DNA from: an uncultured Coriobacteriaceae bacterium
Lineage (GTDB): Bacteria > Actinomycetota > Coriobacteriia > Coriobacteriales > Atopobiaceae
Direction: 5' to 3'
DNA: 64,000 bases
Assembly (NCBI GenBank): GCA_902790135.1
Contig: CADAQM010000014.1
Coordinates: forward strand, 1-64,000
Position 1 is the first letter of the stretch. Each line of letters opens with the position of its first letter. Below are positions 15,978 through 40,791 of the stretch, one piece after another. The position numbers were made by a program, and so were the translations under genes. Below the pieces are notes generated by a model, which was not told the origin of the DNA, ran no database searches, and saw only the letters and a program-made list of their open reading frames with translations.

Positions 15978-18764
15978 CTACTGCAGGCTCTGGGGAACCT
16001 GTCCGTTGCCTTCGTAGCTCCAGCTCATATTATCAAATAGAGGCCCATCAATCGCATACCACTCACCATCGGATACGTCGAGCTGGGTGCTCTCCGCAGT
16101 GTTGTATCCATATATGTGCCAGTGCCTTGATGTCGTCAGGTACTGGGTGTCCTTCTTCTGTTCGCTCGTGATGGCTTTTCCAGTCCAGGGGTTTGTCGGA
16201 TGCTCCACGGCGCCCGACAATGCAAGTGTGGGCACATCGGCATTGGTCATGAACTCGTCAGAGACGGAGAGCTCCGTTGAGCCGAAGTCCTTGAAGAGCA
16301 GTACCGGATTGACCCACTGCGCATCGACGCCATTATCCATCTGCATGTAGTCGAACTGGGCCAGCCCATAGCCGTGATCCGACGCAATGATGATGCGCGT
16401 GTTGTCGTAGACCCCCTCTGCGCGCAGGTAGTCAAGCCATTTGCCAATCTGGATATAGGACGCCATGTTGGCCATGTAATGCTCTACCGTATCATCGACA
16501 ATCACACCGCTCGCTCCCTCTGCAGAGTTGAGGTGATTCAAGAAGTCGTCGTAGTAGGCACTGTTATCCACCTGCGCCGCAGGCTCGTAATCGGGCAATT
16601 GGAGAATGCAGGGCTTATGCGGCGTGGTGTTGTAGAGGCTCACAAAGCAACTCACGTCGTCATCATCGATGAGCGTCAGCTGTGGTAGGTGCTTGAGCAC
16701 CATATACTGCGGCACGAATGTCCAGTCGATGTCGGAGAGGTCGTACGCAGCCATGCCAAGGTAGTGACCGCGGTCGTACAGTATGGGCTGCAACCAGAGG
16801 GGGGCGCACTTAAAGACGCTATAGCGGAAGACGCGACTCGTACGCACCTCGTCGAAGTCCTCCTCACTGACTGACCCCTCGGCGTTAAAGTCATAGTGAC
16901 CGGGCGTATGGTAAGTACGGATGTTGTCCCATTCATCGAATATCGAGAGGTCGCCGGGCTCCTGGTAGCCGGCGTAGGGTGGGTCGCATACCGTGACGTC
17001 CCACCCCTCCTCAGCGAAACTCACGGGCACAACGCGCAGGGCGTCGTTTTGAGCCTGTCCGAGCGTAATGTCAGTCGAGTTGATTACCGCAGGCGTGTAC
17101 TCATAACCGCCAAAGAGGGCGGGCGTGCAGATATCGGTAAAGAACCCGAAGGACATGGTGTTGGGGTAATAGGTAAAGCCCGCAAACTGCTCTGCCAGCT
17201 CGGGCTTCTCGTCCAGGCAGAGTGGAAAGTCCGCGCCGATAGCCCTGTCGATGCCAAGGAACACGACATTCTTTCCCGTGCGGCTTAGGTGGAGAATCTG
17301 GTCGTCTTGGGACAGCTCCTGCTCGTCAGACTGCAGCGTGGCATTTGCCTTTACCATCTCGTTCGAGACCCTTACGCGCACGAACGTCATGGCGAGTGCC
17401 GCTATCGTTGCCGCGCCAAGGATTGCCTGAAGAAGGCGTGGAGCCCGTGTCCACAGCCAACAAATGGCAACCAGGACAAGAATCAGGGCCAACAGGTTTG
17501 TCAGCTTATCCATAACGGAAAAGGCAACCTTTGTGTCGAACACAAACTTCGAGTTGAGGTTGCCAAGCCCTGTGCCAAAGAACATGTAATCAACGACCGC
17601 AAAGCAAGCCAGCACAAAGAAGACGAGGTTGGTTGCGCGCTTGGCTTTATCACTCATGAGGTAGTGGAATACTTGCGCCCACAAGAGGAAGACGCCGACG
17701 GCTATGCAGGTGGCGGACCACGCAAATCGCATCGGGTCCATCGAAGTTCCCGCCTGCACGAACTCGGTGGGACTGTCTGCGATTACGGATGCCGGAATCA
17801 AGAGGCCCATAAAGACGGTAAGGAAGGCACAGCTGAGCAAAAAGGTCCGTGTGCTGCAGGCGTTGGAAGCCAGCAGGGTCTCCCATGCCTTGCGCACAGG
17901 GGCGAGACGGGAGCTGGTGCCCCGACGAGACAGGATGGAGGCAACGAGTGGTGTCCAGCAGCCTATGAGCAGCAGGGTGCAGAGCACCAATCCGGTGGCG
18001 CGCCCAAATGCATCCCAAGTACCCAGCGCTAGCAGGCTGATTACGAATAGGGTGCCAGCTGCGGCAAGCAACGCAATGGCAACTTCACGCGGATGCTTGA
18101 GAACCTTCATAAACACGTTCTTTGCGAGCGAGAATACCTGGTTGCATGTCCAGTAGAGCACCAATCCGGCAGGGCGATCGTAGAGCAGAACAAGGAACAC
18201 GAGGGCGAGGCCATAAGGAACAGCTTGCTCGCGTATGGACCTTCCGCGGTTGTAGACGAAGCAGGCGGCTGCGTTGATGGCAGTCATGAGAATGGGCAGC
18301 ACGTTGATGGAGAACCCACCCAAGGAAATGAGTGCGTCAGGAGCACCGAGGTCAGCGATGCCGAGAAAGGAAGCGCCCTTCAAGGCCTGCATGGACGACA
18401 GACAGTTGTAGGCCGCCATGAAGAAGGGGATCTGCAGGAGCAGGGATATCGAGCTTCTGAGCTGGTAGTAGGGCTTGTAGTTCTGCTGGCGGTAGTACTC
18501 CGTGAGGACCATGACCCTCTCGTCGCCCGAGAAGGCGCGATTGATGTGGGTCACCCAGTGCGCCATCTTGTCCTGTCTGTCGCGCTCCTCTTCCTGGATG
18601 GCATCGGCCCGTCGGTACATGGGAAGCATGAGCAGGCTTATGACCACGCTTACGCCTATGCAGGCTGGCCCCGGATTGCCGAGCAGCCGCAGAAGCAGAC
18701 TGAAGACAACTTCCACGAGCATTTCGATGGGATATATCACTATGAGATAGAGCCAGTGAGACAT
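15978..18764 (-). CDS. YidC-like membrane domain fused to a sulfatase/LtaS-like phosphotransferase domain (copy 1)
   Basis: 928 residues. Residues 1-225 match a YidC/Oxa1 core (helices, the LLMLPMY segment, a charged hairpin, and the YQLRSSISLLLQIPFF segment). Six or so further helices follow (about 230-480), then an extracellular alkaline-phosphatase-superfamily domain (about 510-900) with NVVFLGIDRAIG, YPNTMSFGFFTDICTP, FGGYEY, and ASDHGYGL near the metal site. The position of the conserved YidC groove arginine is Ser (VVISLLMLP). I chose ATG 18764 because of AGGAGG 8 nt upstream and because it aligns with copy 2; the frame stays open to 19001 without family sequence. Its role may be transfer of a phospho-alcohol to surface polymers outside the membrane (inference). 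A paralogue lies at 38029-40791. Confidence 0.82.
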   Translation of the reverse strand: MSHWLYLIVIYPIEMLVEVVFSLLLRLLGNPGPACIGVSVVISLLMLPMYRRADAIQEEERDRQDKMAHWVTHINRAFSGDERVMVLTEYYRQQNYKPYYQLRSSISLLLQIPFFMAAYNCLSSMQALKGASFLGIADLGAPDALISLGGFSINVLPILMTAINAAACFVYNRGRSIREQAVPYGLALVFLVLLYDRPAGLVLYWTCNQVFSLAKNVFMKVLKHPREVAIALLAAAGTLFVISLLALGTWDAFGRATGLVLCTLLLIGCWTPLVASILSRRGTSSRLAPVRKAWETLLASNACSTRTFLLSCAFLTVFMGLLIPASVIADSPTEFVQAGTSMDPMRFAWSATCIAVGVFLLWAQVFHYLMSDKAKRATNLVFFVLACFAVVDYMFFGTGLGNLNSKFVFDTKVAFSVMDKLTNLLALILVLVAICWLWTRAPRLLQAILGAATIAALAMTFVRVRVSNEMVKANATLQSDEQELSQDDQILHLSRTGKNVVFLGIDRAIGADFPLCLDEKPELAEQFAGFTYYPNTMSFGFFTDICTPALFGGYEYTPAVINSTDITLGQAQNDALRVVPVSFAEEGWDVTVCDPPYAGYQEPGDLSIFDEWDNIRTYHTPGHYDFNAEGSVSEEDFDEVRTSRVFRYSVFKCAPLWLQPILYDRGHYLGMAAYDLSDIDWTFVPQYMVLKHLPQLTLIDDDDVSCFVSLYNTTPHKPCILQLPDYEPAAQVDNSAYYDDFLNHLNSAEGASGVIVDDTVEHYMANMASYIQIGKWLDYLRAEGVYDNTRIIIASDHGYGLAQFDYMQMDNGVDAQWVNPVLLFKDFGSTELSVSDEFMTNADVPTLALSGAVEHPTNPWTGKAITSEQKKDTQYLTTSRHWHIYGYNTAESTQLDVSDGEWYAIDGPLFDNMSWSYEGNGQVPQSLQ
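18408..18539 (-). repeat. 132-bp inverted repeat copy inside YidC-sulfatase gene 1
   Basis: This segment (residues 76-119) matches 38254-38385 of the paralogue at 130 of 132 positions. The two copies are in opposite orientation and about 20 kb apart. Flanking sequence of the two genes diverges at once, including at synonymous positions. Confidence 0.9.
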
Positions 18765-19086
18765 CTGCTCCGCCTCCTCTATTAGGACGTCCCCAGTCTC
18801 GGGGTCGCGAGCAAACAAGTATCCAGGCGAGCGGGGTGCCCTCGCTAGATGCTGGATACGATAGCATATTCCCCGTGGCACCCTTTTCGACCTAAAGACA
18901 ACGCCGAAAGTACAAGAAGCAGCAACTGATACTCTCAGCCCATAGACCACAAGCTTATACATGCAGTTTGTGTTGCGGCCGACGGAAGACCGGCGGGGCA
19001 CAAGGTGCGTGTGTTAGCATCTAGGAATTGTTGTGGATTGATTACTAGGCCCCGACTTTTGCAACATGTTGAAGGGATGAAATACC
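18765..19086. other. Divergent intergenic region between YidC-sulfatase 1 and the transpeptidase gene
   Basis: This region must hold promoters for both flanking genes. On the minus strand a -10-like TATGCT is visible near 18866-18871. On the plus strand no clear pair is found. An 8-bp word CTAGATGC (18844-18851) recurs inverted as GCATCTAG near 19017-19024. I see no gene. Confidence 0.45.
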
Positions 19087-21753
19087 ATGCAGTTCAAACA
19101 TCCGCGCAGCGCGATTGTGTCCTGCGGCCTGGCTCTTGTCCTGGGTTTTGCAGCCCCGTCGGTTGCACTGGCTGCTACCGATGACGGTAGCGCGGGCGAC
19201 GATTCGCTTGTCACCCAAGCCGCAGAGGATCTTGCGGCTCTGAGCGAAGAGCCAAGCGTCACCGCGCCTGAGAACCAGGACGGGATTGAGGTCTCGACCG
19301 GTTCCGAGGATACAACCGAGGCGCCTGAGACCGACGGTGCCGTTGACGAGACAGCCGATGGCTCCAACGCCGTAGACGAGGCGCCTGTCCAGGAGCAGCA
19401 AGCACCGGAAGAGCCCCAAGTGGAGCAGACCGCCGAGCCTGCTATGACCACACAGAGCACGGAGCCCACAGCAGATTCTTCGGGGCTGACTGTGCTTGCG
19501 GACCCTGGTGATAATAAGCAAGAGGATTCTCTGAAGAATGTCCCAGAGGGTTATTACATGATTGGATCTGCACTCAATTACACGACGGTGCTGGACGTGG
19601 CTGGCGGCTCGTCGAGCAACGGAGCAAATGTGCAGGTTTACACGGCGAATGGCACGGACGCCCAGAGGTGGTACCTGACCTATGTGGGAGATGGGTACTA
19701 CACCATCCGTCACGTCGGTACACAGCAGATGCTGGAGGTGCAGGGCGAAAAAGGTGAGAACGGCGCAAATGTACAGCAGAACCAGCCAAAGAATACGGAT
19801 GCGCAGCAGTGGCGCTTTGTCGATGCAGGCAGCGGTCAGTACAAGATCGTCTCACGCCTGGCGTCAAATTTGGTTCTGGACGTGTGGAGTGGCAAGAGCG
19901 CAAATGGCACCAATGTCCAAATCCACTACGACAACAATAGCGACGCCCAGAGATTCCGCTTGCTAGATGCGACTCAGGCTGACCCAAGCACGACAAACTT
20001 GGATGACGGAGCCTATTCGATACTGGTTGCTTCGAACAATCTTTACAGCGTCGATGTGAAGAATGGCTCCAGATCGGCGGGCACCAACGTTCAGCTCTAT
20101 CGCGGCAACGGCTCGCAGGCGCAGCGGTTCTACTTTGTTGCAGACGGCGAGGGGTACTACACGATTACCGTCATTGGCAGCGGTAAAGTGCTGTCGCAGG
20201 TGAACAAAAGCGTTCTGAACGGAAACAACGTCCAGCAGGCGGCAAACAACGGATCGAACATTCAAAAGTGGGCGATACACCAGCAGGCGGACGGCAGCTA
20301 CGAGATTGTCAACAAGGCGACAAACCTCACGCTTGATATCGCGGGGGGCAAGATTGCCAACGGCACGAACCTCCAGGGCTACAAGGACAATGACACGAAG
20401 GCTCAGCGTTTTACCTTGAAGCCCACCCTGGCGCTCACCGCGGGCATCTATGAGATTGCCAGCTTCAAGAACTTGAGCAGCATCATCAACGTAAAGGGTT
20501 CATCGACGGGGAGCGGCGCATCCTTGGAGCTCCAAAAGGATGCCAACCTGTTGTCAGAGCGCTTTGAGGTGCTAATTGAGGGGAATGCTTATCGCATTCG
20601 GACGGCGTCGTCGGGTGGTTACTTGACGTACGACTCGAGCAAAGGTCTCATTCAGTCCAACCAAAAGGCGGTGAGCAGCAACAACAAGTGGAATCTCGTC
20701 TGGAATGGGACATACTTCTCGCTGGCAAACGCGGCTAAGGGGGAGGTGCTGGATGCAAAGGGTGGCAATTTTTCCAGCGGGACGGTCATCCAGACCTACA
20801 AAATGAACGGGACTGACGCGCAGCACTACTACTTCATTGCCGCAAACCTGCTTCAGAATGGAACCTTCATCATCAAGTCGGGTGTGGGCACCGCGCTGGA
20901 TGTAAAGGGCGGCGCAACCACCAACCGTGCAAACGTCCAAGCGTACACTTTGACTGGTGCACAGTCTCAGCAATTCACCGTCAAGGCGACGGGTTCGACG
21001 ACCAATACGTACTCGATCGTGAACGTTAAGTCGGGCAAGGCGGTTGAGGCGAATGCATCGAAGAACGTCCAGCAGTATACAAACAAGGGCAACGACAACC
21101 AGCTTTGGGTGGCCGCGATTGCCGATGGCGGCGGCGTGACCTTCTTGAACGCTGACTCCGGTTTGGCTTTGGATATTAAGAACGGCTCAGCCTACAGCGG
21201 CGCCAATGTCCAAACGTACACTGCAAATGGCACAAAGGCCCAGAGGTGGACCCTGCAAAAGTACGGTTGGTACACAGAGAACGGTAAGCACAACTTCTAC
21301 AACGCTAGTGGTAAGGCAACAACCTGGAATCAGTCTGCGTACAACTCCTGGACGAAGATCAAGTCAATGACGAGCAAGACGAAATACTTGGGTGCGCTCG
21401 ATCAGAACCTCCTTTACGTGACCTTCTTCATCAGAGAGGCTGATTGCTGGGTGCCCTGCGAGAACTGGATCTGCTCCGTAAACGCACATGGTCGTACCCC
21501 GAAGGGCACGTATGCCATTAGGAGCAAGGCTGAATACGTCTTGACGCATTTTGGGTCCGGCTCTTGGTACTGGTCGCACTGGGGTCCCGACTACCAAGCC
21601 TTCCACTCGGTGCTTACTGCGCCCGGCAGCAAGAGAGTCACGTACAGTGGTCTGGGCAGGCGCAATACCAGCGGATGCGTGCGCTGCCCAATGGAGAAGG
21701 CATATTGGGTCTGGAAGAATGTTCCTATCGGCACAACTGTCTACAGCTACTGA
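19087..21753 (+). CDS. Secreted ricin-repeat (RICIN) L,D-transpeptidase
   Basis: 888 residues. Residues 1-30 are a signal peptide ending AAPSVALAA; 31-155 are an acidic Glu/Thr/Pro linker. Residues 155-715 carry about twelve beta-trefoil modules with the pattern GANVQ...DAQRW, enough for four ricin-type lectin domains. The C-terminus (about 745-888) is a YkuD-type L,D-transpeptidase: NAHGRTPKGTY, a His near 830, and SGCVRC with the catalytic Cys at 864. The enzyme would cross-link peptidoglycan stem peptides or attach proteins to them, while the lectin part binds a wall glycan, probably the polymer encoded around it (inference). A weak site (GAAGGGA) precedes ATG 19087. No LPXTG or transmembrane anchor is seen. 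Confidence 0.88.
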   Translation: MQFKHPRSAIVSCGLALVLGFAAPSVALAATDDGSAGDDSLVTQAAEDLAALSEEPSVTAPENQDGIEVSTGSEDTTEAPETDGAVDETADGSNAVDEAPVQEQQAPEEPQVEQTAEPAMTTQSTEPTADSSGLTVLADPGDNKQEDSLKNVPEGYYMIGSALNYTTVLDVAGGSSSNGANVQVYTANGTDAQRWYLTYVGDGYYTIRHVGTQQMLEVQGEKGENGANVQQNQPKNTDAQQWRFVDAGSGQYKIVSRLASNLVLDVWSGKSANGTNVQIHYDNNSDAQRFRLLDATQADPSTTNLDDGAYSILVASNNLYSVDVKNGSRSAGTNVQLYRGNGSQAQRFYFVADGEGYYTITVIGSGKVLSQVNKSVLNGNNVQQAANNGSNIQKWAIHQQADGSYEIVNKATNLTLDIAGGKIANGTNLQGYKDNDTKAQRFTLKPTLALTAGIYEIASFKNLSSIINVKGSSTGSGASLELQKDANLLSERFEVLIEGNAYRIRTASSGGYLTYDSSKGLIQSNQKAVSSNNKWNLVWNGTYFSLANAAKGEVLDAKGGNFSSGTVIQTYKMNGTDAQHYYFIAANLLQNGTFIIKSGVGTALDVKGGATTNRANVQAYTLTGAQSQQFTVKATGSTTNTYSIVNVKSGKAVEANASKNVQQYTNKGNDNQLWVAAIADGGGVTFLNADSGLALDIKNGSAYSGANVQTYTANGTKAQRWTLQKYGWYTENGKHNFYNASGKATTWNQSAYNSWTKIKSMTSKTKYLGALDQNLLYVTFFIREADCWVPCENWICSVNAHGRTPKGTYAIRSKAEYVLTHFGSGSWYWSHWGPDYQAFHSVLTAPGSKRVTYSGLGRRNTSGCVRCPMEKAYWVWKNVPIGTTVYSY

Positions 21754-24941: not shown

Positions 24942-26003
24942 ATGAAGAAAGAGATCAGGGTTTACTCGGTCCACCCCTGGGCCAACACACTAGAGAACTT
25001 CATGATTCGCTATCACTTCGATAGGCTGACATCTGACTTCGATTTTGTCTGGGACGACAAAACGCCCCAGTACGTGTTTGCCAGCGAGCATATCTACAGC
25101 AGCTACCAGGCGTTTCGCGACTTCTTCCGCCTGTGGGAGAGCGGTCGTGCCAAGGACCGCATCTTCATAGGGTATCTGGAGGAGGCAATCGAACCCGACC
25201 TCAACCTCTTCGACTATGCGGCGGTATACTCTACCGAGTTCGCAAGGATGGACCGGGTCACCAGGCTGCTCCCCGTGCATACGAAATTCAAGATCTTCTA
25301 CGTGCCGGAGAGCCATCCTGCGGCCTCCCCCCAAGAGGCGAGGGACATCCTGCGGCAGAAGACCAAGTTCTGCGACTTCCTCTACAGCCACGCCTACCAG
25401 GAGCGTGACGACATATTCACCGCCCTCAGCGAATACAAGGGGATCGATGCCCTGGGCGCCCGATTCCACAACACGGACTACAAGCCGACGGGCTTCTTTG
25501 GCCATGCACAGGAGACCACGGCCCTGCACAGGCCCTACAAGTTCACCATTGCCGTGGAGAACGGCTCCCTTCCCGGGTACACCTCCGAGAAGCTGATGAC
25601 CGCCTTGCAGGCCAACACCGTGCCAATCTATTGGGGCAATCCCGAGATAGCCGATGACTTTAATCCAGCCTGCTATATCAATGCAAACGACTGCACCGAT
25701 TTCCACGACCTTATAGAGAGGGTCAGGGAGATCGATACGGACGACGAGCTCTGGTGCAGCATGATAAGCCAGCCTTGGCAGACCGAAGAGCAGGTCAGAA
25801 GGGAAGAGGCCCAGGTCGAAGAGTACTATCGGTTCTTTCACGACCTCTTCTCATCCTCGGTGTCGGATGCGAAGCGGCTATCATGGACCATGCACATGGA
25901 TGCTTATCAGGATTGGGTGCGAAGGAACGCCCCGGTAAGGCCGACGGTGTTTCACAAGGGGCTCGGCGCATTGATGCGCCTTGTGAGGTCCACAAAAGGC
26001 TAG
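24942..26003 (+). CDS. GT10 family fucosyltransferase-like glycosyltransferase
   Basis: 353 residues. The C-terminal half carries the GT10 donor-site signature: KFTIAVENG (near 203), GYTSEKLMTALQANTVPIYWG (near 215-235; key residues Y, S, E, K and the final YWG) and FNPACYINAND. GT10 enzymes add L-fucose from GDP-fucose in alpha-1,3 or alpha-1,4 linkage, as in Helicobacter pylori Lewis-antigen mimicry. The pathway genes for GDP-fucose (gmd, fcl and the mutase/ManC fusion) lie just downstream. Because a ColD-like dehydratase is also present, the natural donor might instead be GDP-colitose. Cytoplasmic, acts on a lipid-linked glycan (inference). No frameshift or repeat tract is seen, unlike the phase-variable H. 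pylori genes. Confidence 0.88.
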   Translation: MKKEIRVYSVHPWANTLENFMIRYHFDRLTSDFDFVWDDKTPQYVFASEHIYSSYQAFRDFFRLWESGRAKDRIFIGYLEEAIEPDLNLFDYAAVYSTEFARMDRVTRLLPVHTKFKIFYVPESHPAASPQEARDILRQKTKFCDFLYSHAYQERDDIFTALSEYKGIDALGARFHNTDYKPTGFFGHAQETTALHRPYKFTIAVENGSLPGYTSEKLMTALQANTVPIYWGNPEIADDFNPACYINANDCTDFHDLIERVREIDTDDELWCSMISQPWQTEEQVRREEAQVEEYYRFFHDLFSSSVSDAKRLSWTMHMDAYQDWVRRNAPVRPTVFHKGLGALMRLVRSTKG

Positions 26004-26536: not shown

Positions 26537-27625
26537 GTGAAAACTGCGCTTATTACGGGCGTGACGGGGCAGGACGGATCCTACCTGTCCGAGCTCCTGC
26601 TGGAGAAGGGTTACGACGTCCACGGCATCATCCGGCGAAGCTCGGTGGACTACCGCGAACGCATTGCCCACCTCGAGGGCCACGAGCGTTTCCACCTGCA
26701 CTACGGTGACCTCTCCGACAGCATGAGTCTGGTCAAGGTAATCAGCTCGGTGCGTCCAGACGAGGTCTACAACCTGGCGGCCCAGAGCCACGTACAGGTG
26801 TCCTTCGACGTGCCGGAGTTCACAGCTGATGTCGATGCCACCGGCGTCCTGCGCGTGTTGGAGGCCGTGCGGGCCTGCGGGCTGGAGCACACCTGCCGCA
26901 TCTACCAGGCTTCCACCTCGGAGCTCTTCGGCAAAGTGGAGGAGGTTCCACAGAGCGAGACGACCCCCTTCCATCCCTACAGCCCCTATGCGGTGGCCAA
27001 GCAGTACGGCTTCTGGATTACCAAGGAGTACCGCGAGGCCTACGGCATGTACTGCTGCTCGGGCATCCTCTTCAACCACGAGAGCGAGCGGCGCGGCGAG
27101 ACCTTCGTCACCCGAAAGATTACCCTGGCGGCCGCCCGCATAGCCCAGGGCGTGCAGGACAAGCTCTACCTAGGCAATCTCGACAGCCTGCGCGACTGGG
27201 GCTACGCGCGCGACTACGTGGAGTGCATGTGGCTCATCCTGCAGCAGGACGCTCCCGACGACTACGTGATCGCCACAGGCGAGCAGCACACCGTGCGCGA
27301 GTTCTGCGAGCTGGCCTTCCGCGAGGCGGGGATTACACTCCGCTGGGAGGGCGAGGGCGTGGGCGAGCGTGGCATCGACGAGGCCACCGGGCGCACCCTC
27401 GTGGAGGTATCCCCGGACTTCTATCGGCCGACCGATGTGGTCAACCTGCTGGGCGATCCCTCCAAGGCCCGCCGGGAGCTGGGCTGGGACCCCATGAAGA
27501 CCAGCTTCGAGGAGCTGGTGGCCCTCATGGTCAGGCACGACATGGAGAAGGTGGCCGTGGAACGTGTCGAGGAGCGCGTGCGGACCAACCTGGCGGAGTA
27601 CCTGGAGCGAGGTGTCGTGAAATGA
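26537..27625 (+). CDS. gmd: GDP-mannose 4,6-dehydratase
   Basis: 362 residues, normal length. It is an extended SDR: the NAD(P)-binding [18 protein letters not shown] at residues 3-20, IRRSS near 32, a YNLAAQSHV stretch, STSELFGK with the catalytic Thr/Ser and Glu near 125-132, and [11 protein letters not shown] with the catalytic YxxxK near 148. It converts GDP-D-mannose to GDP-4-keto-6-deoxy-D-mannose, the branch point for GDP-L-fucose, GDP-colitose and related sugars. It starts at GTG 26537 with AAGGAG 7 nt upstream and overlaps fcl by an ATGA. Its GC content and codon bias are higher than fcl's, which hints at separate origins. Confidence 0.95.
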
Positions 27626-28575
27626 CAGCGTCAATCGACAGCGATGCAAAGGTCTATGTGGCAGGTCATCGTGGCATGGTCGGTTCTGCCATCGTACGAG
27701 AGCTTATACGGAGGGGCTACAGCAATATTGTAACGCGCACGAGTTCGGAACTGGACTTAAGACGGCAGAGCGACGTCGAGGAGTTCTTTTTCGAAGAGCG
27801 GCCCGCGTACGTGTTTCTCGCTGCCGCAAGGGTAGGGGGGATACAGGCCAACATCGATATGCCTGCAGAGTTTCTCTACGACAACCTTTGCATACAAAAT
27901 AACGTAATAGAGTCCTCCCGCAAAAGCGGTGTGAGCAAACTGCTCTTCCTCGCCTCCTCGTGCATTTACCCTCGGCTTGCCCCACAGCCAATGAAGGAGG
28001 AATACCTGCTTGATGGCAAGCTTGAACCTACCAATGAGGGTTATGCGCTCGCCAAGATAGCGGGTCTTAAGATGTGTCAGTACTACAACATGCAGTACGG
28101 TACTGACTATATCAGCGTAATGCCGTGCAACATTTATGGGTACGGTGATAGTTTCGACCCAGTACGGTCGCACGTGGTTGCAGCGCTCATACGAAAGGTT
28201 CATGAGGCAAAGGTGTCTGGAAGTAAGGTCATACCAATGTGGGGGACCGGTACGGCACGACGTGAGCTCATGTTTGTCGACGACTTGGCCAATGCATCCC
28301 TGCACCTCTTCGAGCGGTACTCAGGAAACGATTTCTTCAATGTGGGGACCGGTACGGATGTGTCTATCCGTGAACTTGTCGAGATGATCATGGAAGTGGT
28401 CGGATATGACGCTGAGCTGGCGTTCGATACGCGCAAGCCCGACGGCATGCCGCAAAAGCTCATGGATGTCTCGCGTATACGTGAGGCAGGTTGGACGGCA
28501 AAGACGAGCCTCAAGGAGGGTTTGGAGAAAACCTACCGTTACTTCCTCGAAGAGGTGCTTCCCAACGAAAACTAG
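27622..28575 (+). CDS. fcl: GDP-L-fucose synthase (or GDP-L-colitose synthase-like epimerase/reductase)
   Basis: 317 residues, normal length. SDR enzyme with [16 protein letters not shown] at residues 9-24, LAAARVGGI near 67, SSCIYP near 107 (catalytic Ser and the region of the epimerising Cys), and YALAKIAG near 135 (catalytic YxxxK). It epimerises C3/C5 and reduces C4 of GDP-4-keto-6-deoxymannose to give GDP-L-fucose with NADPH. ColC of the colitose pathway is closely related, so with the adjacent ColD-like gene it may also act on the 3-deoxy intermediate (inference). ATG 27622 overlaps the gmd stop (ATGA); a longer open frame from 27223 is antisense to nothing useful and is rejected. Confidence 0.92.
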
Positions 28576-28625: not shown

Positions 28626-29783
28626 ATGATATACAGTCTTTCGAATGATACATGGGGCGATGAGGAAATCAGGGCAGCACATGAGGTCATAGACTCTCGC
28701 TTTTTTACTATGGGTAAACGCGTAAGCGAGTACGAGAGGGAGTTTGCGAAAAAGTTTGGCTCAAAGCATGCTGTGATGTCCAATTCCGGATCATCAGCAA
28801 ATCTGCTCAACATGGCGGCGCTCGTCTACTCGGGCAGGATGCATGTGGGGGACGAGGTCCTCGTGACGGCCGTTTCTTGGAGTACGACATATTTTCCCAT
28901 TGTACAGATGGGCCTCAGGCCGAGGCTCGTCGACATCGAGCTGGGGACTCTCAATGTGGACATCGCGCAGCTTGAGGCAGCGCTCACCCCAAGGACCAAG
29001 GCGGTTATGGCAGTCAATCTGTTGGGCAATCCGAATAGGTTCGACTCGCTGCTTGAGTTCTGCGAACGGCACCATCTGATACTTATCGAGGACAACTGCG
29101 AGTCCATGGGAGCAACTTACGACGGCAAGGCAGCCGGGACGTTTGGTGTCCTAAGTTCCTTCTCGACGTACTACTCGCATCACCTCTGCACCATGGAAGG
29201 CGGAATGAGCCTGACCGATGATGACGAGATGTACGAGTACCTGCTCTGTATTCGCTCGCATGGGTGGACGAGACATCTTCCCGAAAACGCCTCGATACAC
29301 TCGAAAAGCGACGATCCCTTTTACGAGAGCTTCAACTTCATCATGCCCGGGTTTAATGTTCGCCCGCTCGAAATAGAGGCAGCCATCGGTCTCGAGCAGC
29401 TTAAGAAGCTTGACGGTTTCGTAGCCCAGCGCAGGGAGAATGCTCGATATTTCCTAGAAAGCGTTGCGGCGCTTGGCCTCATCACTCAGGAAGAGGTCGG
29501 CCAGTCTTCTTGGTTCGGGTTCTCAATCGTCCTCCCCGAAAGGATGGACGGGCAAAGGGATCGCTTCACGAGCGCACTGCGTGACAGCGAAATCGAGGTC
29601 CGCCCCATTGTGGCGGGCAACTTTGCGCAACAGAAGGCCATGAAATTCATGCACGGCAGTGTTTGTGGGCCGCTGCATAACGCAGACTACGTGCATCGGA
29701 ACGGATTCTTTGTGGGGAATCACTCTGTCGAAATGAGCCGGTGTATTGACCTGCTATGCGAGACACTCAAGTCAGTGCTGTAG
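28626..29783 (+). CDS. DegT/DnrJ-fold PLP enzyme with active-site His: ColD/RfbH-type sugar 3-dehydratase
   Basis: 385 residues. The aspartate-aminotransferase fold is shown by NSGSSANLL near 53-61 (PLP phosphate), IEDNCESMG near 154 (Asp156 to the PLP ring) and STYYSHHLCTMEGG at 180-193. The Schiff-base Lys of sugar aminotransferases is replaced by His186 (SHHLCTMEGG), as in ColD (His188 of a 388-residue protein) and RfbH/E1. Such enzymes do not transaminate a sugar but remove its C3 hydroxyl. Downstream of gmd, the natural substrate would be GDP-4-keto-6-deoxymannose. No FeS cysteine cluster of the E1 type is evident. AGGAG precedes ATG 28626; an upstream in-frame start at 28491 lies inside fcl. 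Confidence 0.83.
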   Translation: MIYSLSNDTWGDEEIRAAHEVIDSRFFTMGKRVSEYEREFAKKFGSKHAVMSNSGSSANLLNMAALVYSGRMHVGDEVLVTAVSWSTTYFPIVQMGLRPRLVDIELGTLNVDIAQLEAALTPRTKAVMAVNLLGNPNRFDSLLEFCERHHLILIEDNCESMGATYDGKAAGTFGVLSSFSTYYSHHLCTMEGGMSLTDDDEMYEYLLCIRSHGWTRHLPENASIHSKSDDPFYESFNFIMPGFNVRPLEIEAAIGLEQLKKLDGFVAQRRENARYFLESVAALGLITQEEVGQSSWFGFSIVLPERMDGQRDRFTSALRDSEIEVRPIVAGNFAQQKAMKFMHGSVCGPLHNADYVHRNGFFVGNHSVEMSRCIDLLCETLKSVL

Positions 29784-29807: not shown

Positions 29808-32800
29808 ATGTTAGTGAAACTGGATGAGCAGATGCCCGATAGGCTCTTATACGATAAGTGGATACGTGCCCTTGATGGATCGGTGGAACCTTGGGAAGCC
29901 GTCGAGCTGGCTCAGCCCGATGCTCGTGAGGATGCTTTTGCTGGTGACCTTCGCTTTGGCACGGGTGGGATACGCTGCCTCATGGGAATCGGTCCCAACC
30001 GCATGAATCGACTCACGATCGGTAAGGCTGCGCAGGGGCTGGCCAACTGGCTCAATGACCTTCCCGGGCACAAGACGGTCGCCATTGGCTATGACACGCG
30101 TTTCCACAGCCGTGAGTTTGCCGAAACGACGGCATGCGTGCTTGCGTCCAGCGGAATCAAGGCGCTCATCTTCTCGTCCCCGCAGCCCACGCCGGTGCTC
30201 GACTTTGCAACCAGAAGATTGGGCTGCAGCGTTGGCGTGGTAATAACGGCATCCCACAACCCCAGGGAGTACAACGGCTTTAAGGTATATGGTCCAGATG
30301 GGGTGCAGGCGATCGATGGCATGGCTCGCGCTATACAGGCGCGGATCGAGGAAATCGACCCCTTCGAAGACGTCAAGTTCATGGACTTCTCGTCAGCCCA
30401 GGAAAGGGGCCTGATCTCCTATGTCGATGACAAGCTCCTTCTAGAATACCGTGAGTCAGTGCTCGGCTGCCGGCTTGGGGTCGACTGCTCGAACCTATCC
30501 GTCGTCTACTCCCCTTTGGATGGGACCGGGCTGGTACATGCGAGAGCGATGTTGGAGAGCCTCGGCGTTGCGTATTCGCTCGTCGAAGAGCAAGCTGGCA
30601 TGGACAGCAGCTTTAGCAGCTGCCCCAAGCCCAACCCCGAGAATCCCGATGCGATGGCGATGGGCATGACCCAGATGGTCGACAGGGGAGCAGACCTCTT
30701 TCTGGCAACCGACCCCGATGCGGATCGCGTTGGCGTGGCATGCCTAGATGAGGGCAGGCCTCGCTTGCTGACGGGTAACGAGGTCGGGATTCTGTTGCTG
30801 GATTGGATATGCAGGCACCGCAATGCAGGAGAGGGGAATGCCGTCGCAGTGACCACGGTGGTATCCGCCCCTCTGGCAGACGACATCTGCAGGTGCAACG
30901 ACGTCGAGCTGAGGCGAGTCCTCACGGGCTTCAAATACGTCGGTGAGCAGATCGGACGCATCGAGTCCGCAGGGGATGAGTTCCTCTTCGGTCTCGAGGA
31001 GTCCGACGGCTACCTGCGGGGCACGTACGCCCGCGACAAGGATGGTATCAACGCGCTCATGCTCGTATGTGAGATTGCCGCCTACTACAAGATGCGTGGG
31101 CAGACCCTTGCGGAGGCGTTGGAGTCGCTCTATGCACGATATGGCTATTCGCTTGGGAGACAGATTTCCTTTGAGCTGCCCGGCTCCGACGGGAAGGCTT
31201 CGGTTGGCAGGTTGATGCGGCGCCTTCGCGAGACCCCGCCTCGCAGCATCGCCGGTAGGGAGATAACGGACACGGTGGATTACCTCTCTGGTGTGCCGAT
31301 ACCCGTCGTGGGCAGGCCAAGGGACGAGCGCCTCCCTCCCTCCAACGTGGTCGAATGGCGCCTGGAGGATGGCTCGCGCGTGATCGCGCGGCCGTCTGGC
31401 ACCGAGCCAAAGCTCAAGGTGTACGTCTTCGCAAATGGACCGTCACGGGACTCCGCCGAGTCGCTTCTGAGGACGATGGTCTCCGAGGTGCGGACGTTTC
31501 TGGATCAGAAGGAACTCGAGAAGAATGAGGGAGGAACCATGACACACGTTGTGCTCCTTTCGGGTGGCTCTGGCGCCCGTCTCTGGCCGCTTTCCAACTC
31601 CGCCCGCTCAAAGCAGTTCCTAAAGGTGCTGCGCGACGAGGCGGGAAACCACGTCTCCATGGTGCAGCGCGTCTTCGGGCAGATCGCCGCAGTTGACGAG
31701 GACCTTGACGTTACGATTGCCACAAGCGCCGTGCAGTCAGGCGCGCTCTCCCTGCAGGTGGGAGGACGCTTCGAGCTTGCAGCAGAGCCCGAAAGACGTG
31801 ACACGGCGCCAGCCATCATGCTTGCATGTGCCCACCTTTCCATGGTGCAAGGCGCGTCAGACAATGACCCCGTGGTAGTCATGCCTATCGATACGTATGC
31901 CGACCAGGAATACTACGACAGGATTCCCGCCGTGGCCGATGCCGTGCTCGCTGGCGTCTCGGACCTCGTGCTGCTCGGGGTCACGCCCACCTACCCGTCC
32001 GAGAAGTACGGCTATATATTGCCGGCCTCCACCGAAGGCGACGTCTGGCCAGTTGCGACTTTTCGCGAGAAGCCAGACGTAAAGACTGCCGAGGGCTACA
32101 TAGAACAAGGCGGTCTTTGGAACTGTGGGGTCTTCGGCTTCCGCTTGGGATGGTTGAGGAAGCTCTCCAACGGCTACTACAATGCGGAAAGCTACAATGA
32201 CATGCTCGCGCACTATGGCGAGCTGCCGAAGAACAGCTTTGACTACGAGGTTGTAGAGAAGGCCCAGAGCATCTCCGTTGTTCCCTACTCGGGTACGTGG
32301 AAGGACCTGGGGACGTGGAACACGCTTGCAGAGGAGATGGCTGAGCCATACTCGGGATCCGTCTGGGTGGACGAGGCAACGACGTCCAACGTTCACGTCA
32401 TCAATGAGACCAGGCTGCCTATGGTTGTCGCGGGTGTATCGGATGCCGTGGTCGTGGCAACCGCAGACGGCATTCTGGTTACCGGAAAGGATGCGAGTTC
32501 TCACATTAAGGTACTTGTCGAAGAGGCTTCCAATGACAGGCCCATGTACGAACGTCGCGAATGGGGCGAATACCGGGTGGTTGATGCCGGCGATTACGAT
32601 GATGGCAATCATACGCTCACTAAGGAGCTTGTTCTGAATTCTGGCAGACAGTTATCCTATCAGCGGCACCACCATAGGGCCGAGGTATGGACTATCGCGA
32701 GTGGCATTGGCGAGGTCGTGCTTGACGGAGAGGTGATTCCTGTAGAAGCTGGTGATTCTGTTCGCATTGACCCCATGCAGATGCATGCAGCGAGGGCTAT

Positions 32801-32885
32801 AACTGAGCTTCATATCATAGCGGTGCAGGTCGGATGGCCTCTCGTCGAGGAGGACATTGAGCGCTTTGGTTTCTATTGGGAGTAG
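29808..32885 (+). CDS. Fused phosphohexomutase (PMM/PGM) and mannose-1-phosphate guanylyltransferase / PMI-like cupin
   Basis: 1025 residues. Residues 1-577 are a full-length PgcA-like alpha-D-phosphohexomutase: TASHNP with the phosphoserine at 149, DPDADR for Mg, GLEESDGYLRG for sugar, RPSGTEPK for phosphate. Residues 578-1025 are a type II ManC: LLSGGSGARLWPLS (GTP site), FREKPD, and a C-terminal cupin with YQRHHHRAEVW (metal-binding His). Together they catalyse mannose-6-phosphate to mannose-1-phosphate to GDP-mannose, feeding gmd upstream. The two enzymes are normally separate. An excellent internal ribosome binding site and ATG at 31539 suggest a free ManC can also be made. The start at 29808 has no close site; a GAGAGAGG is 18 nt away, so it may be weakly translated or start at ATG 29832. 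Confidence 0.9.
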   Translation: MLVKLDEQMPDRLLYDKWIRALDGSVEPWEAVELAQPDAREDAFAGDLRFGTGGIRCLMGIGPNRMNRLTIGKAAQGLANWLNDLPGHKTVAIGYDTRFHSREFAETTACVLASSGIKALIFSSPQPTPVLDFATRRLGCSVGVVITASHNPREYNGFKVYGPDGVQAIDGMARAIQARIEEIDPFEDVKFMDFSSAQERGLISYVDDKLLLEYRESVLGCRLGVDCSNLSVVYSPLDGTGLVHARAMLESLGVAYSLVEEQAGMDSSFSSCPKPNPENPDAMAMGMTQMVDRGADLFLATDPDADRVGVACLDEGRPRLLTGNEVGILLLDWICRHRNAGEGNAVAVTTVVSAPLADDICRCNDVELRRVLTGFKYVGEQIGRIESAGDEFLFGLEESDGYLRGTYARDKDGINALMLVCEIAAYYKMRGQTLAEALESLYARYGYSLGRQISFELPGSDGKASVGRLMRRLRETPPRSIAGREITDTVDYLSGVPIPVVGRPRDERLPPSNVVEWRLEDGSRVIARPSGTEPKLKVYVFANGPSRDSAESLLRTMVSEVRTFLDQKELEKNEGGTMTHVVLLSGGSGARLWPLSNSARSKQFLKVLRDEAGNHVSMVQRVFGQIAAVDEDLDVTIATSAVQSGALSLQVGGRFELAAEPERRDTAPAIMLACAHLSMVQGASDNDPVVVMPIDTYADQEYYDRIPAVADAVLAGVSDLVLLGVTPTYPSEKYGYILPASTEGDVWPVATFREKPDVKTAEGYIEQGGLWNCGVFGFRLGWLRKLSNGYYNAESYNDMLAHYGELPKNSFDYEVVEKAQSISVVPYSGTWKDLGTWNTLAEEMAEPYSGSVWVDEATTSNVHVINETRLPMVVAGVSDAVVVATADGILVTGKDASSHIKVLVEEASNDRPMYERREWGEYRVVDAGDYDDGNHTLTKELVLNSGRQLSYQRHHHRAEVWTIASGIGEVVLDGEVIPVEAGDSVRIDPMQMHAARAITELHIIAVQVGWPLVEEDIERFGFYWE
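31528..31541 (+). promoter_or_regulatory. Internal Shine-Dalgarno and ATG for a separate ManC
   Basis: GGGAGG at 31529-31534, 4 nt before the in-frame ATG 31539-31541 that begins the ManC half (MTHVVLLSGG). This is a better initiation site than the one of the fusion itself. Confidence 0.7.
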
Positions 32886-38028: not shown

Positions 38029-40791
38029 TTGCTTCATATCATCTATGACATCGTGATTCAACCGCTCGTATATTTGATCGAGCTCGTGTTTGCTGTGGGA
38101 TACCGGCTTACCGATAGTCCGGGGCTTGCCATCGTGGGTGTGTCCGCAGCCGTAAACCTGCTGAGCCTGCCCCTCTACCGCATGGCTGACGCCATCCAGG
38201 AGCAGGAGCGCGCCCGTCAGGAGGCGATGGCAGGATGGGTGGCACATATCAAGCGCGCCTTCTCGGGCGACGAGAGGGTCATGGTCCTCACGGAGTACTA
38301 CCGCCAGCAGAACTACAAGCCCTACTACCAGCTCAGGAGCTCGATATCCCTGCTCCTGCAGATCCCCTTCTTCATGGCAGCCTACTCGTATCTTTCTGAT
38401 TTGTCCCTGCTGAGGGGTGCCTCCTTCCTCTTTTTGAATGACTTGGGAAGCCCCGATAGCCTGTTTAGCGTTGGTGGCTTTGCCATCAACATCATGCCCG
38501 TGCTCATGACCGCCCTCAACGTTGCGGCGTCCGCGGTCTATACGCGCGGCATGTCCTTGGGAGACAAGGTCCGCACCTACGGCCTCGCGATCATCTTCCT
38601 CGTTCTGCTCTACGATAGCCCCTCTGGGCTTGTGTTCTACTGGACTTGCAACCAGCTTTTCTCGTTGGGCAAGAACATCTTCATGAAGGTGGTCCCGAAT
38701 CCCCGCAAATGGGCCCTCCTGCTTGCCCAGGCCTGTGTTCTCGGGGCCTGCGCATGGCTTGTGGTTGACGGGAAGGTATCGTCACCAAGGCGCGCCATCG
38801 TTATCGCTCTATGTCTTCTTGTGTTTGAGATCATCTGGTGGTGGTCATTTACACGCAGTCCGAAAAACGAGACCGAGGCTGCCACGGTGTCCCCTGACGA
38901 TCGTCGTGCCACCACCCGCCAGTTCTTCTCCGCAGCGGCGTTGCTGGTTGTTCTGATCGGTGTGCTCATTCCTTCTGCGCTTATAGCGGATTCTCCGATC
39001 GAGTTTATGGTCGGCAGCAACAGTCCCTTGAGCTACATCGTGCACGCAGCCTGTGTGTGGGCGGGCGTCTTTCTTCTGTGGTGGGGGACCTACTACATGC
39101 TCTCGGACGATGGTGCGCGGAAATGGCACGCACTTGCCCTGTGGCTCCTTTGCGGCGTGTGTCTGCTAGACTACTTTGTCTTTGGCCGCAACCTGGGCAC
39201 AATCACCACTGCCCTGAAGTATGACAACGGCGTCAAATATGCCCTGTCCGAACAAGCTATCAACTTCATGGCGCTCGCGGCCTTGCTTGTGGCGATGTAT
39301 GCAGTATGGAGATGGCGTCGGCTTCTCGTGCTTCCGGTTACCTGTGTGACGGCACTCTCCCTTGCGTTGATGTCCGTCGTCAACGTGCATACCATAACGA
39401 CTTCCGTGGCGCAGAATCGGGCGCTTCTCGAGAAGTCCGATGGAAATGAGCTTGTGCTTCCCGATGGCACCCCGCGCCAGATCTTCCATCTCTCCCAGAC
39501 GCATCGCAATGTGGTTATTATCTACCTGGACCGCGCCATATCGGCTTTCGTTCCCTTCATCATGGAAGAGCGGCCCGAGCTCGAAGCCCAGTTTGACGGC
39601 TTTGTCTACTACCCCAACACGCTCTCCCATGGTTGGTATACCAACTACGGGGCACCGGGGATCTTCGGTGGCTATGAATATGTGCCTTCTGCTATGAACC
39701 AACGTGCCGACGAGGGGCTTGCCGACAAGCACAACGAGGCTCTTTTGCTTATGCCCACGCTCATGTCGGAAGAGGGGTACCAGACCACCGTCATTGATCC
39801 ACCGTACGCCGGGAGTTACACGTTGGGCGTGGATCTTTCCATGTACGGACAGCTTGACAACACCGAGGCCTACAAGATAAACGGTGCCTATACGGAGCTG
39901 GTCCAGAATCGTCTGGGCGTCGGCGCCTCCTCAAGGCTTGAACGCAAGTTCGTCTTCTACGGGCTGTTCAAGGTCGCCCCCGAGCTGGTTCAACCCAGAA
40001 TATATGACAGGAGCCTTTACATGACTCCCTCGAAGGCCACCTACCCCAGCAAGCGCCTGCGTGATGAGCTGAGCGTGCTAGAGCTGCTCCCCGAGCTGAC
40101 GGATATCGAGTCAGACAAAGGTGGGTTCGTCCAGCTGTACAACAACACCACTCACGAGCAGGACTTCCTGCAGTTGCCGGACTATGAGATATCCGACGCC
40201 GTGAACAATGCCGGTCTCGAGGACTATGGTCGGTTTGAGCTTAACGGCGTGACCCTCACTCACATGACCACCGACGACCAACGCATGCACTATCACGTAA
40301 ACGCTGCTGCTCTCATGCGACTGGGAAGATGGTTCGACTGGATGAGGGACCAGGGCGTCTGGGACAACACTCGCATTATCATCGTCGCGGACCACGGACG
40401 TGGTCTGCATTGCCTGGATGACTTGGTGTTTGATGACTACCTTGATGTCATGAAGGTCAACCCGCTTCTTATGGTCAAGGATTTTGAGGCAAGCGGCTTT
40501 GCCGTCTCGGATGAGTTCATGACCAACGCTGATGTGCCGGCGATTGCCATGGCTGGTGTCATCGAGAATCCCGTGAACCCCTTCACGGGCAATCCCATTG
40601 ACACCTCAGACAAGGAAAACCATGAGCAGCTGGTAACCCTTTCCTCACACTTCAAGACCGGAACGAACCACGGAAACACCTACGACACTTCGGATGCCCC
40701 GTGGTACTCCGTCCACGACAACATCTTCGATCCTTCAGACTGGACTCGTTACGAAACATACGAAGACGCGATTCGGGCGGTGCCGCAATAG
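38029..40791 (+). CDS. YidC-like membrane domain fused to a sulfatase/LtaS-like phosphotransferase domain (copy 2)
   Basis: 920 residues, co-linear with copy 1. Residues 1-225 are the YidC/Oxa1-like core (VSAAVNLLSLPLYRMADAI; the groove arginine position is Asn), followed by further helices to about 480 and an extracellular sulfatase-superfamily domain with NVVIIYLDRAIS, YPNTLSHGWYTNYGAPG, IFGGYEY, VADHGRGL and SDEFMTNADVP. The nucleophile is uncertain: copies 1 and 2 share a Thr (FFTD/WYTN), whereas a C-x-P motif in copy 1 (ICTPAL) is G-x-P here. Starts at TTG 38029 with AGGGGG 6 nt upstream. Probably works outside the membrane on lipid-linked polymer (inference). Residues 76-119 are encoded by the near-identical 132-bp patch. 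Confidence 0.83.
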   Translation: MLHIIYDIVIQPLVYLIELVFAVGYRLTDSPGLAIVGVSAAVNLLSLPLYRMADAIQEQERARQEAMAGWVAHIKRAFSGDERVMVLTEYYRQQNYKPYYQLRSSISLLLQIPFFMAAYSYLSDLSLLRGASFLFLNDLGSPDSLFSVGGFAINIMPVLMTALNVAASAVYTRGMSLGDKVRTYGLAIIFLVLLYDSPSGLVFYWTCNQLFSLGKNIFMKVVPNPRKWALLLAQACVLGACAWLVVDGKVSSPRRAIVIALCLLVFEIIWWWSFTRSPKNETEAATVSPDDRRATTRQFFSAAALLVVLIGVLIPSALIADSPIEFMVGSNSPLSYIVHAACVWAGVFLLWWGTYYMLSDDGARKWHALALWLLCGVCLLDYFVFGRNLGTITTALKYDNGVKYALSEQAINFMALAALLVAMYAVWRWRRLLVLPVTCVTALSLALMSVVNVHTITTSVAQNRALLEKSDGNELVLPDGTPRQIFHLSQTHRNVVIIYLDRAISAFVPFIMEERPELEAQFDGFVYYPNTLSHGWYTNYGAPGIFGGYEYVPSAMNQRADEGLADKHNEALLLMPTLMSEEGYQTTVIDPPYAGSYTLGVDLSMYGQLDNTEAYKINGAYTELVQNRLGVGASSRLERKFVFYGLFKVAPELVQPRIYDRSLYMTPSKATYPSKRLRDELSVLELLPELTDIESDKGGFVQLYNNTTHEQDFLQLPDYEISDAVNNAGLEDYGRFELNGVTLTHMTTDDQRMHYHVNAAALMRLGRWFDWMRDQGVWDNTRIIIVADHGRGLHCLDDLVFDDYLDVMKVNPLLMVKDFEASGFAVSDEFMTNADVPAIAMAGVIENPVNPFTGNPIDTSDKENHEQLVTLSSHFKTGTNHGNTYDTSDAPWYSVHDNIFDPSDWTRYETYEDAIRAVPQ
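38254..38385 (+). repeat. 132-bp inverted repeat copy inside YidC-sulfatase gene 2
   Basis: It matches 18408-18539 (minus strand) at 130 of 132 positions; the two differences are both single purine changes. It occupies exactly the same codons (76-119) in both genes. Confidence 0.9.

Follow-up and report, generated by a model that had tools for sequence, protein, structure and literature searches.

A predicted GDP-L-colitose operon in a cell-wall polymer locus of an uncultured Gram-positive coriobacterium

Gene content of the cassette and its surroundings

The window analysed here is a stretch of 64,000 nucleotides (contig CADAQM010000014.1) from an uncultured Coriobacteriaceae bacterium, and on its forward strand lies a group of genes predicted to cover the route from mannose phosphate to a 3-deoxy sugar nucleotide. 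The gmd gene (26537..27625, +), which starts with GTG behind an AAGGAG site, codes for a GDP-mannose 4,6-dehydratase (NCBIfam TIGR01472, 522 bits, cut-off 415) sharing 83% identity with the Gmd encoded beside colD in Hungatella (L026). The stop codon of gmd is overlapped over 4 bp (ATGA) by the start of a colC-type SDR gene (27622..28575, +), whose product is a predicted GDP-L-colitose synthase (5-epimerase/4-reductase) according to homology, tree position and residue signature. The colD gene follows (28626..29783, +), with ATG at 28626, AGGAG before the start and a stop codon at 29781-29783; homology and active-site columns predict its 385-aa product to be a GDP-4-keto-6-deoxymannose 3-dehydratase. 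The first-pass annotation had placed Gmd and an Fcl/ColC-like SDR beside this gene, and both are indeed encoded directly upstream of it. Downstream, domain profiles revealed PMM (about 1-577) and a mannose-1-P guanylyltransferase/PMI-like ManC in one 1025-aa frame (29808..32885, +). This frame is single and uninterrupted, yet it contains an internal ATG at 31539 with GGGAGG four bases upstream, so that it could represent a fusion with a retained internal start from which ManC is separately initiated. A GT10 glycosyltransferase gene (24942..26003, +; Pfam PF00852, 59.5 bits) lies 0.5 kb upstream of gmd. Its product, a candidate colitosyltransferase, is the sole PF00852 match in the source genome and has the H. 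pylori alpha-1,3-fucosyltransferase as its closest solved structure.

Four TagF-like (PF04464) genes are clustered upstream of the cassette and one lies downstream, along with genes for a TupA-like ATP-grasp protein, a PGA_cap protein and GT2/GT4 glycosyltransferases. Judged by this gene content, the region is a Gram-positive cell-wall polymer locus rich in teichoic-acid functions. Two large proteins, encoded at 15978-19001 (-) and 38029-40791 (+), combine a YidC/60KD_IMP-like first domain (Pfam 60 and 64 bits) with a sulfatase/LTA-synthase-like domain; this fusion is of unusual architecture and possibly acts as a polymerase for a teichoic-type polymer. An 888-aa protein (19087-21753, +) has numerous ricin-type lectin repeats and ends in a YkuD L,D-transpeptidase domain. 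The segment 1-6000, with a GC content of 37-45% compared to 55-60% elsewhere in the window, adjoins an integrase/transposase-core ORF (224-1537) and is probably a recent insertion.

The ColD-like protein and its catalytic site

The 385-aa protein matched the DegT/DnrJ/EryC1 family with 264 bits (cut-off 19.8). In a phmmer search of all PDB sequences its best match was E. coli ColD (2gms, 439 bits), with which it shares 53% identity over the full length, followed by RfbH (172 bits) and perosamine synthase (150 bits). Residues 184-193 read SHHLCTMEGG. The first-pass annotation had proposed that His186 replaces the PLP-binding Lys in the manner of ColD His188; the replacement of Lys by His was borne out, and the residue number shifts by one. 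The altered column in the H188K (2r0t) and H188N (3b8x) ColD mutant chains aligns with the first of the two His in SHH, which makes His185 the catalytic residue (codon at 29178..29180, +, placed by alignment to 2gms and the two mutants) and pairs His186 with ColD His189. The SHH motif was kept in all 80 retrieved ColD homologues, and the two paralogues of the Lys type from this genome carry K in the His185 column; hence, the His at this position is not a chance substitution.

The remainder of the active site agrees with this assignment. Trp85, Asp156, Ser180, Ser184 and Asn244 correspond to ColD W88, D159, S183, S187 and N248 (the PDB chain index of ColD being the residue number + 2), the cofactor-pocket residues of the ColD structures. 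The catalytic His and the cofactor-pocket columns were invariant, including Asn244, Arg246 and Trp214. In the segment aligned to the [2Fe-2S] cluster region of E1/RfbH the protein has no Cys, as in the described mechanism of ColD, which works without Fe-S, unlike E1/SpnQ with their [2Fe-2S] Cys motif (PMC8987622). The RfbH/E1 profile gave 266 bits, below its cut-off of 423. RfbH/E1 (3bcx) is likewise a His-for-Lys 3-dehydratase of the same fold, but it differs from the window protein in its CDP specificity, its [2Fe-2S] Cys cluster and its pairing with a reductase.

Phylogenetic analysis of the family, which the first-pass annotation had proposed as a check, placed the window protein on the ColD side of the tree, away from the RfbH rows, in a group with five Clostridia/Synergistota sequences (SH-aLRT 99). 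On the strength of these comparisons the protein is a ColD orthologue, and ColD function is very probable for the product of 28626-29783. It shares with E. coli ColD (WbdK; 2gms, 3gr9) the SHH site, the lack of Fe-S cysteines and an operon with gmd and a reductase; in contrast to E. coli ColD, it comes from a Gram-positive host and a teichoic-acid-type neighbourhood, and sits in a branch of Clostridia/Synergistota-like sequences (65-69% identity).

Fucose-type and colitose-type features of the reductase

The SDR encoded between gmd and colD retains the Fcl catalytic residues Cys114, Tyr141, Lys145 and His184. It scored 339 bits against E. coli Fcl and 228 bits (38% identity) against Y. similis ColC, with which it has the SDR family and the operon position in common. 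Because it resembles Fcl by raw score, ColD-free Fcl-type SDRs were sampled for comparison (n=58; 28 from the class and 30 from Lachnospiraceae, a family in which ColD was missing from 61 of the 62 genomes carrying an SDR of this type). The catalytic residues, which Fcl (WcaG) and the colD-linked window SDR share, failed to separate ColD-free from colD-linked enzymes, but some other columns did. The column of E. coli Fcl Thr280 was occupied by Thr in 57/58 ColD-free SDRs and by Met in 62/65 SDRs linked to both gmd and colD, with Met in just one ColD-free sequence; colD-linked SDRs without Gmd mostly had T, V, A or S there, not Met. The window SDR has Met276 in this column and also Cys169, Gly140, Ala212 and Tyr154, all five being shared with canonical ColC and the first four typical of colD-linked enzymes, and it has none of the Fcl-type Thr280, Thr164 and Pro207.

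In a 64-sequence SDR tree, the 30 ColD-free Fcl rows all grouped with E. coli Fcl in one clade (94/95), and every colD-linked SDR, including that of the window, fell outside it. Forcing the window SDR into the Fcl clade was rejected with a p-AU of 0.0012, a value that is somewhat optimistic as the tested group was picked after an earlier quick tree. The canonical, Yersinia-type ColC rows formed a separate clade (100/99), distinct from the Gram-positive colD-linked SDRs, and the window SDR was not a member of it. The NCBIfam Fcl model NF047922 gave 460.8 bits for the window SDR against a cut-off of 500; this cut-off was rejected as a discriminator of fucose and colitose enzymes, given that the Thr280-type enzyme of a ColD-free gmd operon (L194) likewise reached only 465 bits. 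That operon, in genome G196 of the same family, consists of gmd, sharing 88% identity with that of the window, and then the Thr280-type SDR, manC and pmm, with no colD, and by its gene content it is a plain fucose-type operon. The second SDR of genome G402 was dropped as a within-genome fucose control, its neighbour being only 36% similar to Gmd.

In genome G615, the gene for the lone Met-bearing ColD-free SDR (L154) is immediately followed by one for a His-type DegT protein and then by gmd and manC. This protein (L185:5718-6917, between the ColC-type SDR and gmd; Lachnospiraceae family) has His in the catalytic column (STYVAHTITTG) together with a cysteine-rich stretch, and its best PDB match was E1/RfbH (3bcx, 204 bits). 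By sequence it looks like a non-orthologous 3-dehydratase in ColD's place. The exception supports the view that Met at column 280 marks a 3-deoxy substrate rather than ColD ancestry, with the caveat that the L154 SDR is related to the window SDR; the role of the residue is correlative and tracks the tree, perhaps reflecting a single change. Further along the G615 contig lie an rfbF-like gene and a partial RfbH-like gene.

Predicted pathway, alternatives and distribution

Support for the GDP-L-colitose gene set named in the first-pass annotation comes from the orthology of ColD and its active-site columns, from the linkage of the genes in an operon, and from the tree position and residue signature of the SDR. 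PMM and ManC would supply GDP-mannose, which Gmd would convert to GDP-4-keto-6-deoxymannose. ColD, dependent on PMP/PLP and needing no Fe-S, would then remove the 3-OH to yield GDP-4-keto-3,6-dideoxymannose, with His185 as the acid/base and glutamate as the recycling amino donor, and the SDR would carry out C5 epimerisation and C4 reduction to GDP-L-colitose. GT10 would be the likely transferase to a surface glycan made by the surrounding teichoic-acid/polysaccharide genes.

The genes had at first been read as a branch of a GDP-fucose operon. This reading is abandoned as the leading one: the Met-type SDR groups apart from the Fcl clade, and the source genome (~97% complete) yielded neither a further Fcl-type SDR nor Fkp (fucose pyrophosphorylase), so that the locus is better described as a dedicated colitose operon than as a fucose side branch. 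A single Fcl-type SDR was also found in 16 of the 17 colD-bearing genomes tested. We consider a dedicated operon with GDP-L-colitose as its product to be the probable interpretation.

The most serious alternative is a mixed operon, in which a promiscuous SDR makes both GDP-L-fucose and GDP-L-colitose, ColD drains part of the keto intermediate and GT10 uses either or both sugars. Gram-positive SDRs of this type, overall nearer E. coli Fcl than Yersinia-type ColC, might make GDP-fucose also or instead; the full set of Fcl catalytic residues and the membership of GT10 in a fucosyltransferase family are in keeping with this, as is the finding that some GT11 colitosyl- and fucosyltransferases each take both sugars (PMC11987014). 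The position of the SDR outside the Fcl clade, Met276 and the other ColC-type residues speak against it, and we regard it as unlikely, though its share overlaps with that of the colitose reading, for a promiscuous SDR could yield some GDP-fucose there as well. Since some transferases accept both sugars, GT10 membership cannot decide the sugar, and it is an even call whether GT10 is the colitosyltransferase and a teichoic-type polymer, suggested by the neighbourhood, its acceptor.

A silent or decayed operon that yields no 3,6-dideoxyhexose appears improbable: promoter-like sites were no commoner than in shuffled sequence and ColD was absent from 11/11 sampled congeners, but all frames are intact and tightly spaced with Shine-Dalgarno sites, and the active-site residues are invariant. 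Still less credible is action of the ColD-like enzyme on another GDP sugar, e.g., GDP-4-keto-6-deoxyheptose leading to a 3,6-dideoxyheptose. Loci with a ColD homologue and no true Gmd do occur in Campylobacter and Helicobacter, so that members of the family can act on other GDP sugars, but the present operon has PMM, ManC and a true Gmd above the equivalog cut-off, its SDR carries Met where Gmd-less relatives mostly do not, and GmhA was not found in the ~97% complete source genome. The readings as a CDP-sugar 3-dehydratase of the RfbH/E1 type or as an ordinary sugar aminotransferase, for which the common fold family and the RfbH and perosamine synthase matches could be cited, can be dismissed almost entirely on account of a ColD score more than 260 bits above both, the missing cysteines, His in place of Lys and the position in the tree.

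A scan of named genomes retrieved 80 ColD loci (49-69% identity) from Lachnospiraceae, Hungatella, Clostridium citroniae, Paenibacillus, Arthrobacter, Methanobrevibacter and a termite-gut-like Coriobacteriia MAG, among others in the set; in 64 of them gmd, SDR and colD were co-directional within a span of at most 6 kb. Closer to the source organism the gene is rare: one other genome out of 399 of the same class and 2 of 396 other genomes of the phylum had a ColD homologue, and none was found in the 11 congeners. Horizontal acquisition of the cassette is the natural reading of this distribution.

Colitose (3-deoxy-fucose) is a rare sugar, described chiefly from the surface of certain Gram-negative bacteria and terminal in several of their O antigens, and the first-pass annotation had called a Gram-positive setting unexpected. 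In genomic terms it is less so, as the cassette occurs in many Bacillota, the Coriobacteriia MAG, Arthrobacter and Methanobrevibacter. No chemical report of colitose in a Gram-positive was found, a weak negative drawn from open-access papers only. A genome survey reported L-colitose pathways to be missing from TACK archaea (PMC7725333), which implies their presence in most other phyla, and a Gram-positive colitose pathway is therefore not a new genomic prediction. What is described here is a new occurrence of a known pathway, in a locus rich in teichoic-acid genes. As a broader and tentative proposal, Gram-positive gut bacteria may place L-colitose on a teichoic-acid-type wall polymer via GT10 and a dedicated Met-type "GDP-fucose synthase", with a Cys-rich E1-like 3-dehydratase from a different clade swapped in for ColD in some relatives. 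If Gram-positive gut commensals display colitose, they are a possible source of anti-colitose antibody reactivity in healthy people. Furthermore, the residue and tree signature offers a simple test for colitose versus fucose pathways, both of which current annotation (GDP-L-fucose synthase) calls fucose.

Related loci occur in other genomes. The ColD homologues of Campylobacter/Helicobacter (L046, L049, L050, L054, L058, L063, L101) have no true Gmd nearby and differ in the SDR residue at column 280; they may belong to 3,6-dideoxyheptose pathways. Within the class but outside the family of the source organism, 17 genomes contained eighteen RfbH-type sequences (L005-L021, L023; L007 with 498 bits against 3bcx), and CDP-3,6-dideoxyhexoses are predicted there. 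A third His-type DegT enzyme (YYAHHMSTVEGG), 35% identical to ColD, is encoded within L025:7379-10623 in G135, a genome of the same order; it is flanked by a 4,6-dehydratase that matches Gmd at only 33% and an SDR in which the catalytic Cys has been lost (TAVYP), and the locus probably serves another sugar.
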